From positions 1 through 35,603 of the forward strand of contig VGQX01000015.1 in NCBI GenBank assembly GCA_016882305.1: DNA of 35,603 nucleotides. Direction: 5' to 3'. This DNA comes from Cyanobacteria bacterium K_Offshore_surface_m2_239. GTDB lineage: Bacteria > Cyanobacteriota > Cyanobacteriia > PCC-6307 > Cyanobiaceae. The notes below the pieces were generated by a model. It was given only the letters and a program-made list of their open reading frames with translations. It made no database searches and was not told the origin of the DNA. This document shows positions 16,656 through 22,474 of this stretch, in pieces. The number at the start of each line of letters is the position of its first letter. The first letter of the stretch is position 1. The position numbers and the translations under genes were made by a program.

Positions 16656-17037
16656 CGCCAGCAACACCGATCTGAGCCGTCTGGTGGCCGCCGCCGCCGA
16701 CCTCTGTCGCAAACCGCTGCGTCACGGTGTTGTGCTGGTCTCCAGCGCCGACGATGAGGACTGCAGTTTGAGACTGGAGGCGCGCTCCGCCGAGGGTGAG
16801 CGTCTGCGGGATCAGGATCTGGACCTGGAGATCTTTCGCAGCGGCGAGGATCTCCATCTCACCCTGGCCTGGCGGAATGATGACCACCGACCCATGCTGT
16901 GGCAAGGAAGTCATCCACTCTGGATGACGGCGACGGGGGAGCGGTGCCCATGTCCGCCGGACGGAACCCCGTTGGAGGCGTTGGCCCGCCGCCTGCGGGC
17001 CTTACTGGCTCCGCTCAGGTCGGAGGCTGGTCGGTGA
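16633..17037 (+). CDS. Small conserved-looking protein of unknown function
   Basis: A 134-residue soluble, acidic protein without membrane segments or a signal peptide. I do not recognise a named domain. It contains an N-terminal helix-like stretch ([18 protein letters not shown]), a beta-rich middle ([39 protein letters not shown]) and a helical C-terminus ending [13 protein letters not shown]. Starts at 16633 or 16642 overlap the CIA30 gene by 14-23 bp, suggesting coupling. The last 23 bp overlap the 3' end of ilvD on the other strand. Balanced composition compared with neighbouring spurious frames argues that it is real. Confidence 0.65.
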
Positions 17038-18691
17038 CCGCCCCCTGACTGCTGGAGCTGACCTGACGGGCGAACTTGCCGAGCACGCCGGTGCGGTAGC
17101 GGGGCGTGGGCGGGGTCCAGACGGCGCGGCGTCGGGCCAGCTCCTCCTCCTCCACGTTCAACTGGAGCAGAAGTCGCTCCGCATCCACCGTGATGCTGTC
17201 ACCGTCTTTCACCAGGGCGATGGTGCCGCCGACGGCCGCTTCCGGCGCCACATGGCCCACCACCAGGCCGTAGGTGCCACCGGAGAAGCGGCCATCGGTG
17301 ATCAGCGCCACCGACTCCCCCAATCCCTGTCCGACGATGGCGGAGGTGGGCGCGAGCATCTCCCGCATCCCCGGCCCGCCCACAGGACCCTCATTGCGGA
17401 TCACCACGACGTCATTCGCCTGGATCCGACCGTCCAGAATCGCTTCCAAACAGCTCTCCTCGCTCTCAAAGACCCTGGCCGGGCCAGTGAGAACTGGCTT
17501 TTTGACGCCACTGATCTTGGCCACCGCCCCCTCTTGGGCCAGGTTGCCCTTCAGGATGGCCAGGTGCCCCTTGGCGTAAAGCGGATGGCTGAGGGGGCGG
17601 ATCACGTCTTGCCCTGACGGGGGGACGGAGGGAACGGAAGCCAGCACCTCCCGCAACGTGCGACCCTCAATGGTGCGGCAGTCGCCATGAAGCAAGCCCG
17701 CATCCAACAAGAGTTTCATCACCTGGGGAATGCCTCCGGCCTGATGCAAGTCGACGGTGACGAAGCGTCCGCTGGGCTTCAAATCGCAGAAGACAGGAAC
17801 GCGTTGCCGGATGGTTTCAAAATCATCGATCACCAGAGGCACGCCAGCTGTGCGCGCGATGGCGAGGAGGTGCAACACCGCATTGGTGGAGCCACCCACC
17901 GCCATGATGACGCTGATGGCATTTTCAAACGCTTCGCGGGTGAGCAAATCAAGGGGCCGGATATTGGCCTTGATCGCCTGAACCAGCACTTCCGCTGAAC
18001 GGGCGGCGCTGTCGGACTTTTCAGGATCTTCTGCCGCCATCGTCGAACTTCCAGGCAGGCTCAAGCCCATGGACTCAATCACGGAGCTCATGGTGTTGGC
18101 TGTGAACATGCCCCCGCAGCTTCCGGCTCCAGGGCAAGCATTCTTTTCAATGGCGAGCAGTTCCGCCTCATTGATTTTTTTGGCGGTGATCTGACCCACG
18201 GCTTCAAAAGAACTGACGACGGTCAGATCGTGCCCATCAAGTTTTCCTGGTTTGATCGTACCTCCATAAACAAAGATGGCTGGGATGTTCATGCGAGCAA
18301 TAGCCAGCATGGCCCCTGGCATGTTTTTGTCGCAACCACCGATCGCCAGAACACCATCCATGCTTTGGGCGTTGCAGGCGGTTTCAATCGCATCGGCGAT
18401 GACTTCCCGTGAGACCAGGGAATACTTCATCCCCTCTGTCCCCATGGATATCCCGTCGCTGACGGTGATCGTGCCGAACAATTGCGGCATGCCACCAGCG
18501 CCGCGCGTGGCTTCCTCGGCGCGTCGCGCCAAATCGTTCAGCCCCACGTTGCAGGGGGTGATGGTGCTGTAGCCATTGGCAATGCCGATGATCGGCTTGC
18601 CGAAATCCTCATCTCCAAAGCCCACGGCCCGCAACATGGCCCGATTGGGAGAACGTTGGATCCCCTTGGTGATGGCGTCGGAACGCAACAT
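17015..18691 (-). CDS. ilvD: Dihydroxy-acid dehydratase
   Basis: Iron-sulfur enzyme that dehydrates 2,3-dihydroxy acids to 2-oxo acids in valine, isoleucine, leucine and pantothenate synthesis. The 558-residue protein has cluster-ligand candidates Cys47 (TPCNVG), Cys120 ([11 protein letters not shown]) and Cys192 ([13 protein letters not shown]), as in the [2Fe-2S] type, and the C-terminal [20 protein letters not shown] signature. ATG 18691 gives [20 protein letters not shown], the normal N-terminus. Composition changes sharply along the gene: a 60-base sample near the 5' end is 53% GC (18181-18240) and one near the 3' end 77% (17221-17280). Two overlapping hairpins lie directly upstream of the start codon. 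Confidence 0.97.
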
Positions 18692-18836: not shown

Positions 18837-19109
18837 TCAAGGCTGAGACGGAAGTGATTCCAACTGGCGCCGCACCTCCTCGATGGCCTGGTTGAGTTGT
18901 TGTACGCGATCTGGCAGAGCCTGCCGTTCGGAAGCCTGCTGATCCGTCAGGACCTTTGAGGCGGAGGACGACGCGCGATGGCGGCTTTGGCGCCACAGCC
19001 ACCAGGCGAAGCCACCGGCGCCAGCCAACACCCCCAGAGCGGCCGCCGTGAAGACTCCTCCAGAGGAAGCGGAGGCCTGGCGGTGAGGGTCTGCCATGGG
19101 AGAAGGCAC
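18837..19109 (-). CDS. Small single-pass membrane protein, unknown function
   Basis: A 90-residue protein with one hydrophobic segment (about residues 19-43, FTAAALGVLAGAGGFAWWLW) followed by basic residues and a C-terminal coiled-coil-like helix (RVQQLNQAIEEVRRQLESL). The layout suggests an N-out or N-in anchor with a cytoplasmic helix, but no family is recognised. It lies between upp and ilvD on the same strand with 29 bp to upp, so it is probably co-transcribed with upp. An ATG four codons downstream (MADPHRQ) is an alternative start. Charged, heptad-like organisation makes a spurious ORF unlikely. Confidence 0.65.
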   Translation of the reverse strand: MPSPMADPHRQASASSGGVFTAAALGVLAGAGGFAWWLWRQSRHRASSSASKVLTDQQASERQALPDRVQQLNQAIEEVRRQLESLPSQP

Positions 19110-19138: not shown

Positions 19139-19819
19139 TCAAGCGGATTCCGCTTCCGGAGTGGCGTGTCCGTAGAGACGGGCGGCGGGATCGCCAAAGC
19201 CTGGAAGGATCTTCCCCTCTTCGCTCAGATCGGGGTCGATGCACGCCGCATAAAGCGTGAGTTCCGGGAAGGCCTCACCCACCACCTTCAGGCCTGGGGC
19301 CGCCGCCACGGTGGTGATCACCCGCAGGCGGGGGCCCTGGACCCCCGCGTCGGCCAGGCGTTCGAGGAGCGCCAGAAGAGTGCGGCCGGTGGCGAGCTGG
19401 GGGAGCCAGGCGAGCACGCCGACGCGGTCCCCGATCGTGGCGGGCAGATCATCCAGATACCAATGGGCCGCCCCATGGGGTGGGGCGTCAATGCCCACAT
19501 GGCAGATCCGGGCCGATGGCACCACGGCCCTCGCCCCCTCCCAAAGTCCCAGGCCACCGCGCAGAACAGGAATGGCCAGCAGCGGAATGGACGGATCGAC
19601 GATGGATCCCTCACAGGGACCCCCGGGGGTCTCAATCGTCACGCTTCGATGGGGGAGCCAGTCGCGAAGGGCCTCGTAGGTGAGCCAGCGACCCAGCTCC
19701 CCCATGGCGGTGGCAAACAGTGGCGAGGGTGTGGCGCTGTCCCGCAGGAGGGTGAGCCAGTGGGCGATCAGGGGATGGGGAGGGACCACCACCCGCAACG
19801 ACATGGCCATGGCTGCCAT
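19139..19819 (-). CDS. upp: Divergent uracil phosphoribosyltransferase-like protein
   Basis: Related to UPRT, which converts uracil and PRPP to UMP. The N-terminal region is clearly Upp (LRVVVPPHPLIAHWLTLLRD, then LGRWLTYEALRDWLP), as are PELTLYAACIDPDL and the C-terminal PGFGDPAARLYG. However, the PRPP-binding loop, normally DPMLATGG(S/T), reads LPQLATGRT, losing the aspartate and a glycine, and the uracil-site NEKGY reads SEEGK. Activity therefore cannot be assumed. The 226-residue length is normal. Possible starts are 19819, 19810 and 19804; MSLRVVV at 19804 is closest to the homologous region. It is divergent from the pentapeptide gene, with about 30 bp between them. Confidence 0.8.
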   Translation of the reverse strand: MAAMAMSLRVVVPPHPLIAHWLTLLRDSATPSPLFATAMGELGRWLTYEALRDWLPHRSVTIETPGGPCEGSIVDPSIPLLAIPVLRGGLGLWEGARAVVPSARICHVGIDAPPHGAAHWYLDDLPATIGDRVGVLAWLPQLATGRTLLALLERLADAGVQGPRLRVITTVAAAPGLKVVGEAFPELTLYAACIDPDLSEEGKILPGFGDPAARLYGHATPEAESA

Positions 19820-19849: not shown

Positions 19850-20506
19850 ATGACCACCGAGTCCGCCAAAGGGGGCACCATGACCGTCACCCTGTCGCCG
19901 GAAGGCTCCCGAGGAAGCCGAACGGCGCGCTGGCCAGGGCTTGGCGCCGTTGTCACCCGGCTCTCCAGTCTGTGGCTTCTGATGTCACGGCCCTTTCAAG
20001 GCGGATGGGCGCGGGTCGCCCCCTTGAGTCTGCTGGTCGCCATGCTCGGCCTTGTGGCGGTGGGCGGACCACGGGAGGCGCTGGCGATCACCGCTCCGGA
20101 ATTGCGGGGACAGAGGGCCCTGCAGCAAATCGAGCCGGACATGCACGGTCGCAATCTGCGCCAGCGGGAATTTCTCAAATCGGACCTCGCGGGAGTGGAT
20201 TTCCACGGGTCGGATTTGCGGGGAGCCGTCTTCAATGGCAGCAATCTGAAGGGGGCGGATCTCCAGGCGGTGGATCTCCAGGACGCCGTCGTTTTCGCCA
20301 GCCGGTTGGACGGCGCGGATCTGCGGGGCGCGTTGCTGCGGGACGCGATGCTGCTGCAGAGCCGCTTCACCGACGCGCGCATCGCCAATGCGGACTTCAG
20401 TGGCGCCGTGCTCGATCGCTCCCAGAGACGCTCCCTCTGTGGCCGCGCGGAGGGGGTCCACCCCGAGACGGGGGTGGCGACGCGTGACAGCCTGGAGTGT
20501 GATTGA
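19850..20506 (+). CDS. Exported pentapeptide-repeat protein
   Basis: Predicted thylakoid-lumen or periplasmic pentapeptide-repeat protein of 218 residues. After a hydrophilic, variable N-terminus, a hydrophobic segment (VAPLSLLVAMLGLVAVGG, about residues 56-73) ends in EALA before ITAPEL, a plausible signal-peptidase site. The mature part has roughly fifteen A(D/N)LXX-type repeats (LAGVDFHGSDLRGAVFNGSN, then LKGADLQAVDLQDAVVF and LDGADLRGALLRDAML), which form a right-handed quadrilateral beta helix, and ends with an SLC...C pair that might form a disulfide. ATG 19850 and ATG 19880 are both possible starts; the former is chosen arbitrarily. The long reading back to 19166 is a shadow of upp. 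Function is unknown. Confidence 0.85.
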   Translation: MTTESAKGGTMTVTLSPEGSRGSRTARWPGLGAVVTRLSSLWLLMSRPFQGGWARVAPLSLLVAMLGLVAVGGPREALAITAPELRGQRALQQIEPDMHGRNLRQREFLKSDLAGVDFHGSDLRGAVFNGSNLKGADLQAVDLQDAVVFASRLDGADLRGALLRDAMLLQSRFTDARIANADFSGAVLDRSQRRSLCGRAEGVHPETGVATRDSLECD

Positions 20507-20529
20507 GCCGGCCTGAGTAAATTGCCCAC

Positions 20530-20661
20530 CATCGGTTCCGTGGGGGATCAGCCCATGGAGGAAACGGGGAAAGATCGGTGCACGGAGCCCCCCTCCGGAG
20601 TCCGACACTGTCCCGCAGCTGTGAAGGTCGCTCAACGACCCAGTCAGAACGCCCGCCGATG
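20530..20661 (+). ncRNA. Cobalamin riboswitch
   Basis: The 5' region of hupE shows the cobalamin aptamer pattern: closing stem CATCGG (20530-20535) with CCGATG (20656-20661), GGAAACGGGGAAAGATCGGTG, the highly conserved TCCCGCAGCTGTGAA (20611-20625), a GGTCG/CGACC hairpin and a B12-box-like AGTCAGAACGCCCGCC (20642-20657). The hupE start codon is 40 nt further on, so control is probably by hiding the GAGGA ribosome site (20682-20686) or by termination. The aptamer is compact (132 nt). It should repress hupE, and perhaps cobW, when adenosyl- or pseudocobalamin is plentiful. Confidence 0.9.
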
Positions 20662-20700
20662 CCCTTCCCATCCAGCCCGGCGAGGACCGGCCCCCCAACC

Positions 20701-21330
20701 ATGACGCATTTCCTGTCGCCGAGACCCGGGTCCTGGCGGCTTCCCTTCGGCGCCGGTCTGTCCGCGCTGCTTGTGACCCTGGCCGTCGCCGCCCCCGCTC
20801 TGGCCCACCATCTGATGGATCTCACCCGGATGGCGCCCTCTCCCTTGACGGGCTTCCTCAGCGGCCTGGCGCATCCGATCCTCGGTCCCGATCATCTGTT
20901 GTTTCTTTGCGCCCTCTCCTTGGTCGGGCTTCGCCAGCGGGCTCCCTGGCTGATGGCCCTGCTGGCCTCGGCGCTCGCGGGCAGCGTCGCGGGGCTGCTC
21001 CTGCCCGGACTGCCCCTGGCCGAGGCGGCCGTGGCCCTCACCCTGGTGCTGGTCGGCCTGATCTGGTTTCAGCGGTGGCCCAAGGGGCTTCTGCTGCCGG
21101 CCATCGCACTTCATGGCTACGTGCTCAGCGCCGCAGTGATCGGCTGGAGCCAGGGTCCCCTGGCCTTCTATGGGCTGGGCCTCCTGCTGAGCCAGGGCAC
21201 CCTGCTGCTGCTGGCGTTCACCTTGCTCCGCTCCTTGGCGGATCGTCTCAGCCCCCAGCGCCGGGCCTTCATCGGCGCGGCCCTGGTGGGGTGTGGCGCG
21301 GCCTGGACCTGGTCGGCGCTGGTGTCCTGA
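20701..21330 (+). CDS. hupE: HupE/UreJ-family membrane protein, probable cobalt or nickel transporter
   Basis: A 209-residue polytopic protein with an N-terminal signal-like segment ending APALAHH, then HPILGPDHLLFLCALSLVG, the HupE/UreJ signature His-Pro...Gly-Pro-Asp-His that is thought to bind a divalent metal. About five more hydrophobic helices follow (21000-21320). Family members move nickel or cobalt. The cobalamin riboswitch directly upstream and cobW directly downstream point to cobalt (or a cobalt-related step) rather than nickel for hydrogenase or urease. The ATG at 20701 starts MTHFLSPRPG; upstream in-frame codons lie in the riboswitch and are not translated in this model. Transport specificity is inference. 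Confidence 0.88.
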   Translation: MTHFLSPRPGSWRLPFGAGLSALLVTLAVAAPALAHHLMDLTRMAPSPLTGFLSGLAHPILGPDHLLFLCALSLVGLRQRAPWLMALLASALAGSVAGLLLPGLPLAEAAVALTLVLVGLIWFQRWPKGLLLPAIALHGYVLSAAVIGWSQGPLAFYGLGLLLSQGTLLLLAFTLLRSLADRLSPQRRAFIGAALVGCGAAWTWSALVS

Positions 21331-21331
21331 G

Positions 21332-22474
21332 ATGACCCTTTCTCCCTCCGCTCGCCTGCCGGTGACGGTGGTGACGGGCTTCCTGGGCGCGGGCAAGACC
21401 ACGTTGTTGCGTCACCTCCTGCTGAAGAGCGGCCAGCGGCTGGCGGTCATCGTCAATGAGTTCGGCGATGTGGGCATCGATGCCGAGCTCCTCTCCCATT
21501 GCGGTTTCTGTCCCGAGGAGGAACGGCGGGATCGCCTGGTGGAACTCACCAACGGCTGCCTCTGCTGCACCGTGCAGGACGACTTCCTGCCCACTATGGA
21601 ACGCCTGCTTGAGCGCGCCGACAGGCTGGATGGCCTGGTGGTCGAAACCAGTGGTCTGGCCCTGCCCGAGCCCTTGGTGGCCGCCTTCCAGTGGCCCGCA
21701 GTGCGCTCCCGCACCCGGGTGCATGCGGTGGTGACGGTGGTGGACGGGGAGGCTCTGGCCGCCGGCCATGTGGTCGGCGATGGGGCCGCCGTGGAGCGGC
21801 AACGTCAAGCGGATCCCAGCTTGGACCACCTCAACGCCTTGGAGGAGCTGTTCGAGGAGCAGCTGGAGCTGGCCGATGTGGTGGCGGTGAGCCGGGCCGA
21901 CACGGTGGACTCCACCGCCCTGGAGGCCGTCATGGCCGGGTTGCGCGCCAAGGTGCGAGCCGGCACTCCTGTTCTGCCGATGGCGCGGGGCGTCCTGCCC
22001 GTGGCTCTGCTGTTGGGTGGCGGCCAGGAGCCGTCCGGGGAGCGGGCGGAGCTGGAGGGGGGAGGCGCCGGCGCCGGGCCCGATCCGTTCGACGACCACG
22101 ACCACGACCATGGGCACGTCGCGATGGCGTCCCTGGTGCTGCGCCGTTGGGGGGCCCTTGGACGCCAAGAGGTCGAATCCGCCCTGCGCGACCTGCTGCG
22201 GCGTCAACCGGTGCTTCGCCTCAAGGGCCGCCTGCAAGAGCCTGGAAAACGACTGGCGCTGCAGGTGCAGGCCGTCGGTCCTCGCCTGGAGGGCTGGTAC
22301 GAGGGGCTGGCCAACCCGGATCCCGACTGCCCCGCCCTGGAACTGGTGGCGCTGGTGCCCGCCTCTCAGCTGGAGGCCCTGCGGTCGGCCAGCTCCTCCC
22401 TCTGGCCCGACGCCGCCATGGAGCCCCCGAGGAGAGGGGAGCGCGAGGTCGCCCCCGCGCCTGGCGCGCATTGA
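21332..22474 (+). CDS. cobW: CobW/COG0523-family metallochaperone GTPase
   Basis: G3E-family GTPase linked to cobalt delivery for cobalamin synthesis or zinc homeostasis. The 380-residue protein has Walker A GFLGAGKTTLL, VIVNEFGDVGIDAEL (switch I), the metal-binding GCLCCTV (CxCC), SRAD in the NKxD position, a His/Asp-rich linker DDHDHDHGH (about residue 255) and a C-terminal CobW_C domain. It starts 1 bp after the hupE stop, so the two are co-transcribed under the riboswitch; that context favours cobalt. Residues after about 355 (PRRGEREVAPAPGAH) are low-complexity and include a CGCGCC/GGCGCG palindrome in the DNA. Assignment to the family is firm, the metal is inferred. Confidence 0.9.
   Translation: MTLSPSARLPVTVVTGFLGAGKTTLLRHLLLKSGQRLAVIVNEFGDVGIDAELLSHCGFCPEEERRDRLVELTNGCLCCTVQDDFLPTMERLLERADRLDGLVVETSGLALPEPLVAAFQWPAVRSRTRVHAVVTVVDGEALAAGHVVGDGAAVERQRQADPSLDHLNALEELFEEQLELADVVAVSRADTVDSTALEAVMAGLRAKVRAGTPVLPMARGVLPVALLLGGGQEPSGERAELEGGGAGAGPDPFDDHDHDHGHVAMASLVLRRWGALGRQEVESALRDLLRRQPVLRLKGRLQEPGKRLALQVQAVGPRLEGWYEGLANPDPDCPALELVALVPASQLEALRSASSSLWPDAAMEPPRRGEREVAPAPGAH

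Follow-up and report, generated by a model that had tools for sequence, protein, structure and literature searches.

A uracil phosphoribosyltransferase orthologue retained in picocyanobacteria without its canonical active-site motifs: a probable pseudoenzyme

The stretch of cyanobacterial DNA analysed here, 35,603 nucleotides long and below called the window, carries on its minus strand, at positions 19139..19819, an orthologue of upp of the form termed type B. The gene starts with ATG, encodes 226 amino acids and lacks the canonical active-site signature of uracil phosphoribosyltransferases (UPRTs). The next gene downstream, at 18837..19109 on the same strand, encodes a small protein of 90 amino acids with a hydrophobic N-terminal stretch as judged by eye, and is followed by ilvD for dihydroxy-acid dehydratase (17015..18691, minus strand); both are conserved neighbours. 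On the other side, a divergent block on the plus strand (approximately 19930-22474) encodes a protein resembling pentapeptide-repeat proteins, whose N-terminus is signal-like as judged by eye, together with a HupE/UreJ-type membrane protein and a metal chaperone of the CobW type. The order of this block, and the place of the small protein between upp and ilvD, are conserved across much of the family Cyanobiaceae.

Membership of the window protein in the UPRT family is clear from the Pfam model UPRTase (PF14681), which matches residues 12-217 with 166.9 bits against a cut-off of 27. Among the NCBIfam models, NF001097 scored 151.6 bits (cut-off 114) and the upp equivalog TIGR01091 stayed below its threshold (140.4 against 208.35 bits); these two UPRT models were the only ones listed up to an E-value of 1, and PyrR was not among them. 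The TIGR01091 threshold is also missed by a cyanobacterial type-B protein with all four active-site motifs intact (L055, 198.9 bits). Solved UPRT structures (PDB 1o5o, 2ehj and 1i5e) are sequence matches of the window protein, with E-values down to 3.3e-31. An AlphaFold2 model, made with the window protein and nine relatives, reached a pLDDT of 86.1 and a pTM of 0.84, and in structural comparison the 14 best among the matches listed were UPRTs with Z scores of 22.8-27.8, the next listed phosphoribosyltransferases (PRTases) scoring at most 13.7. The UPRT fold is thus retained in the predicted structure. The best-kept part of the protein comprises residues 12-56 (19652..19786, minus strand) and contains the type-B signature P13, W21, P31, L42, G43, W45 and W54; these residues are constant in canonical and degenerate groups and differ in type A.

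The loops that bind PRPP, pyrophosphate and base or ribose in UPRTs are known from the literature on class-I PRTases, and their counterparts in the window protein can be located on the minus strand. The former PRPP loop reads LPQLATGRT (residues 139-147, 19379..19405), and the sequence-only reading had taken it as the counterpart of DPMLATGG[ST]; this was borne out by gapless alignment to the DPMLATGG(S/T) of canonical orthologues in Cyanobiaceae. It departs from the loop pattern of UPRT enzymes (EC 2.4.2.9), [DE]PxxATG[GNH][ST]. The same earlier reading had pointed to SEEGK (residues 199-203, 19211..19225) in place of NEKGY; the sequence is present as described but is not diagnostic, as canonical orthologues of the family also lack HGY (e.g. 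DDRYFIVPGLGDAGDR). Two further changes had escaped it. The former flexible catalytic loop, GIDAPPHG (residues 109-116, 19472..19495), has lost the conserved Arg (GLVRDE to GIDAPP), and the former base/ribose loop, PGFGDPAAR (residues 206-214, 19178..19204; canonical PGLGDAGDR), reads GDPAAR for GDAGDR, so that neither of these two hallmarks of the enzyme is present. The pyrophosphate-binding loop, PVLRGGL (19550..19570), keeps its Arg and has Gly for Ala. Since this Arg and the ATG of the PRPP loop (LATG) remain, weak UPRT activity in the window protein would be possible.

No UPRT homologue other than the ORF at 19139-19819 exceeds the cut-off in its own assembly (3.52 Mb, 95.6% complete, 343 contigs). 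The existence of a second, canonical upp had been raised as a check of the sequence-only reading, and none was found, though a copy may lie in an assembly gap; the two weak matches were PyrR (L003) and an ORF that by eye is ComF-like (L002). One profile-guided scan of viral contigs gave no relative, and a phage origin was set aside.

The spread of the motif loss was followed in 145 aligned sequences, of which 39 are from the genus of the window genome, 23 from cyanobacteria outside the family and 83 from the rest of the family (one of these being a foreign copy). The genus set consists of the window protein, 35 of 36 relatives and three more sequences; the relative left out, G017, is 64% complete and gave no UPRT match over the cut-off. 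The acidic-Pro start of the PRPP loop was found in none of the 39 genus sequences and in 22 of the 23 outside the family, and the flexible-loop Arg and GDAGDR were each absent from all 39 and present in all 23. The pyrophosphate-loop Arg was kept in 33/39 of the genus. All four motifs were intact in 0/39 genus sequences, 22/23 outside the family and 18/83 other family rows. The clade-wide conservation of the altered loop, proposed earlier as an argument for a new role, is thus present, and the occurrence of the same three losses throughout the genus rules out a sequencing error or a single odd genome. The replacement loops differ by lineage (LPVLASG, APQVARG, VDQIASG, AAEVGG and others). Several genera that have the acidic-Pro start, and were counted as canonical, carry ATAG or ARGA in the loop, and given these sequences the border between active and inactive forms appears soft and uncertain.

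The changes are concentrated in the active site. When the 55 positions that canonical type-B sequences conserve were divided into active-site loops and elsewhere, the genus had kept 11 and lost 11 positions in the loops, as against 32 kept and one lost elsewhere (Fisher p 5.5e-5). Other freshwater-type degenerate forms gave a similar picture (7 kept and 15 lost against 29 and 4, p 2.9e-5), as did marine-type forms to a lesser degree (6 and 16 against 21 and 12, p 0.013); these p values are descriptive, as the loop limits were drawn after the alignment had been seen and the sequences are related.

The marine-type clade is represented by 30 sequences from small or marine-looking genomes, the label being deduced from genome size and GC content. 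The flexible loop is deleted in its rows, the pyrophosphate-loop Arg is mostly replaced by Pro (in 90% of 31 rows) and a new motif, D-Q-I, has appeared in what was the PRPP loop, with Q and I found in 30/30 and D in at least 90%. Judged from the alignment, D-Q-I looks like a new constraint rather than mere decay. Both marine forms that were scanned fell below the NF001097 cut-off.

The sequence-only reading had also suggested that the protein may sense PRPP or nucleotides. We judge a PRPP sensor unlikely, since the losses affect the PRPP loop itself and the flexible-loop Arg and, across most of the marine clade, also the Arg of the pyrophosphate loop. Regulators of PRT fold that sense PRPP combine an intact PRPP loop with a DNA-binding part, and the window protein has an altered loop and, by Pfam scan, the UPRT domain only, with no DNA-binding domain. 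A sensor of nucleotides or bases would be conceivable. One may speculate that such a regulator would bind a pyrimidine base or nucleotide (e.g. UMP, UTP or GTP) through what remains of the C-terminal loop, without catalysis, and the invariance of P206, G207, G209 and R214 in 64/64 aligned sequences, canonical and degenerate, would suit this. However, the degenerate groups do not conserve the neighbouring D210, A211, G212 and D213, the conserved glycines may be structural, and no DNA-binding domain was found in the Pfam scan. We regard this explanation as doubtful, if the least improbable of the alternatives.

The gene is retained nearly everywhere. With a profile of the marine-type clade it was found in 272/300 family genomes and in 192 of the 197 with a completeness of at least 90% and a contamination of at most 5%; the general Pfam model at E 1e-15 recovered 251/300 and 177/197, respectively. 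All five good genomes in which it was not found are drafts (G142 of g75; G265, G273, G281 and G306 of g79), and since four of them belong to g79 real losses may have occurred there. Of the 23 g79 genomes sampled, 18 have the gene, among them all six that consist of a single contig, and those without it are drafts. In one genome, G096, the match was limited to the first 120 residues.

Selection on the gene was assessed in sets of sequences close enough to one another, 67 degenerate and 28 canonical. The seven degenerate sets gave omega values of 0.065-0.156, namely 0.065, 0.083 and 0.156 for three clades of the own genus and 0.081 (g32), 0.112 (g57), 0.081 (g40) and 0.088 (g79) elsewhere; the five canonical sets gave 0.036-0.128. 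Neutrality (omega=1) was rejected in all 12 sets with 2dLL of at least 105, in g79 for example 2 x (2385.19-2207.62) = 355. The erosion of the active site and the gene-less drafts among the sampled g79 genomes could be taken to mean that a decaying gene was caught before its loss. This explanation is already contradicted by the retention in the good genomes, by the low omega and by the pyrR genes described below, an example of actual decay within the same genomes, and we consider it extremely improbable.

The window gene is a positional orthologue of canonical upp. Canonical and degenerate members have the same gene order, CobW - HupE - pentapeptide protein (divergent) / UPP - small protein - ilvD, with exceptions: the downstream part differs in g60, g71 and g72, and the small gene was not called in a few others. 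These gene-order rows come from 57 of 64 loci, seven having been dropped by the simple gene caller, and they include some duplicates and three rows that are foreign or outside the family. No operon partner specific to the degenerate forms was seen in this comparison, as the same neighbours flank most canonical forms.

A quick gene tree contained five changes between the canonical and degenerate states, one of them a labelling artefact (L017, with DTML, counts as degenerate only under the strict label). In an rpoB tree of 30 genomes there were seven changes, at least four of which are forced by supported branches. In the gene tree the degenerate forms of g67 and g32 are nested together with canonical sequences from their own genera, and in the rpoB tree this nesting is well supported for g67 and weaker within g32. 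Together the trees indicate that the active-site motifs were lost several times independently in the family.

These repeated losses bear on the further suggestion of the earlier reading that the protein may be an enzyme with another substrate. According to this explanation, the protein would be a phosphoribosyltransferase or related enzyme whose altered loops reflect a new specificity. The intact predicted fold and the conserved D-Q-I motif of the marine clade would fit, and the low omega is equally compatible with an enzyme that has changed its substrate. The loops were, however, replaced differently in different lineages, several having lost the site on their own; no member of the genus retains the acidic residue that opens the PRPP loop or the flexible-loop Arg, and the flexible loop is deleted in marine rows. 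A new substrate is hence less likely, and we hold it to be improbable.

A second recognised UPRT, the bifunctional pyr regulator PyrR, is encoded in 280/300 family genomes, a count that includes fragments, and the PyrR of the window genome keeps its VDDVIYTGRT loop. In three single-contig genomes of g79 that are 99-100% complete (G143, G166 and G186) pyrR (L248, L249 and L250) is broken by stops and frameshifts, and this stretch contains no ATG-started ORF longer than 53 amino acids. The UPP-like gene in the same three genomes is an intact frame of 205 amino acids. With pyrR broken and the intact UPP-like gene degenerate, neither recognised UPRT appears to be left in these three complete genomes; they also appear to lack PyrR control of pyrimidine synthesis. 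The drafts G265 and G273 have pyrR matches with stops and no UPP-like gene. An uracil permease of the NCS2 type was found in 8/300 family genomes. A link between uracil import and the canonical state was considered and dropped, since NCS2, the only importer family searched, is nearly absent and discriminates nothing.

In two genomes of g53, G088 and G262, the native degenerate gene (L219 and L220) is accompanied by a separate foreign UPRT gene (L115 and L256). Both foreign proteins have DPMLATGQS and GDAGDL, and L115 lies outside the conserved gene context in G088. The presence of a foreign UPRT alongside the native gene speaks against the explanation that the native protein is a weakened but real UPRT that still serves in uracil salvage. 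That explanation can draw on two preserved features of the window protein, its LATG and its pyrophosphate-loop Arg, and on the fact that it passes one NCBIfam UPRT equivalog cut-off, NF001097. Three motifs have nevertheless been lost together throughout the genus, the gene also persists in marine forms that have no flexible loop and in which the Arg of the pyrophosphate loop has mostly gone, and the two marine forms that were scanned miss that same cut-off. A weakened salvage enzyme is in our view unlikely.

The distribution of type B was examined in a draw of 194 genomes, consisting of 13 from the family, 76 from the rest of the class Cyanobacteriia and 105 from other classes of the phylum. 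The type-B profile scored at least 340 bits in 76/76 class members outside the family. In the other classes none of the 105 carries type B (best score 219.8 bits) and three had no match at all. A separate set of 23 genomes from the class but not the family included G044, which had no UPRT over the cut-off, and the draft G042, in which the type-B upp (L257) is split by a frameshift; type B is accordingly not strictly universal in the class. The photosystem proteins PsaA/B were found in 87/194 genomes, namely 13/13 of the family, 74/76 of the rest of the class and 0/105 of other classes, where the by-class sub-counts are tallies and part of the misses is implied by the totals. Type B without PsaA/B occurs only in G472 and G500, which are the spheroid-body genomes of Epithemia and Rhopalodia, non-photosynthetic endosymbionts, as G468 is that of Cyanothece PCC 8801 (PMC5638926). 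A strict link of type B to photosynthesis fails on these two genomes, and their retention of the gene speaks against a role in photosynthesis proper. In the literature, UPRT is described as important for the establishment of photosynthesis, and uracil salvage as a pathway present in plastids (PMC9312225, PMC10652772).

The two spheroid-body genes (L251 and L252) keep open frames, with an omega of 0.116 over three sequences, these two and that of G468. Compared with G468 their active sites read HNEE/QNEE for RDEE, ATGRS for ATGGS and GNAGDR/GDAGNR for GDAGDR, and by sequence they are a further case of active-site erosion, outside the family. The change from ATGG to ATGR is the same as in the window protein.

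The most plausible explanation of these observations, to which we give a probability of roughly two in three, is that the window gene encodes a pseudoenzyme: a type-B UPRT orthologue that would have kept its fold, lost PRPP binding and UMP formation, and been maintained for a non-catalytic role. The earlier proposal of weakened or abolished PRPP use and a changed role gains support on the sequence side from the clade-wide loss, the focus of change on the active site, the purifying selection and the foreign UPRTs in two genomes, even though the sensor of PRPP and the new substrate offered with it fared less well. We infer that catalysis is gone, that there is a second job, and that residues 12-56 form its surface. 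Type-B UPP may long have had this second, non-catalytic job, and the job would be older than the loss of the active site, because that site was lost several times independently without loss of the gene. It would most simply be a protein-protein role that needs no PRPP, and a pyrimidine nucleotide or GTP might modulate it. Wherever UPRT activity became dispensable, the active site would have been lost and the rest of the protein would have stayed. Catalysis may have been expendable with PyrR as a second UPRT and importers of the NCS2 type rare in the family, and PyrR would since have been lost too in some relatives. Residues 12-56, the part most constant between canonical and degenerate forms, are the candidate working surface.

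More tentatively, this may extend to the whole class. Type B could have a non-catalytic function throughout the Cyanobacteriia, and perhaps in plastids, with picocyanobacteria, Prochlorococcus-like ones included, having repeatedly discarded catalysis until only that function was left, and with D-Q-I having evolved in the marine clade. We consider this extension conceivable and somewhat less probable than its opposite.

In abundant phototrophs, a gene to which automatic annotation would give the name of a uracil-salvage enzyme is probably not one, and pathway models based on names, as well as counterselection schemes with 5-fluorouracil, would then be wrong. If the extension to the class is true, the near-universal picocyanobacterial "upp" is a natural separation-of-function mutant. 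The plant relative of the protein reportedly has a second role, and with these naturally altered versions the role of UPP besides UMP formation becomes testable in small genomes. The open-access literature searched contained no report of a UPRT pseudoenzyme from picocyanobacteria.

Compared with Upp proper (PF14681, NF001097/TIGR01091), the window protein is alike in full-length homology, predicted fold, framework residues and positional orthology with canonical cyanobacterial upp, and differs in the lost PRPP loop, flexible-loop Arg and GDAGDR loop. The PurR-type regulators of Bacillus have a non-catalytic PRT fold, keep the PRPP loop and sense PRPP; the window protein would share the non-catalytic fold and, unlike PurR, has lost that loop. 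PyrR resembles it in the PRT fold, in the UPRT activity implied by the family name and in being encoded in the same genome, but is of a different family and keeps its VDDVIYTGRT loop. A PRTase isoform with negligible activity, APRT2, is described for Trypanosoma brucei (PMC8836349). APRT2, however, is a paralogue beside an active copy, whereas in the window genome the only upp copy found is affected. The plastid UPP of plants is a putative relative of type B, and work attributed to Ohler et al. 2019 is said to show that a catalytically dead version rescues Arabidopsis upp (chloroplast) mutants. The plant protein itself has an intact active site, and what is intact there has in the window protein been lost in nature.
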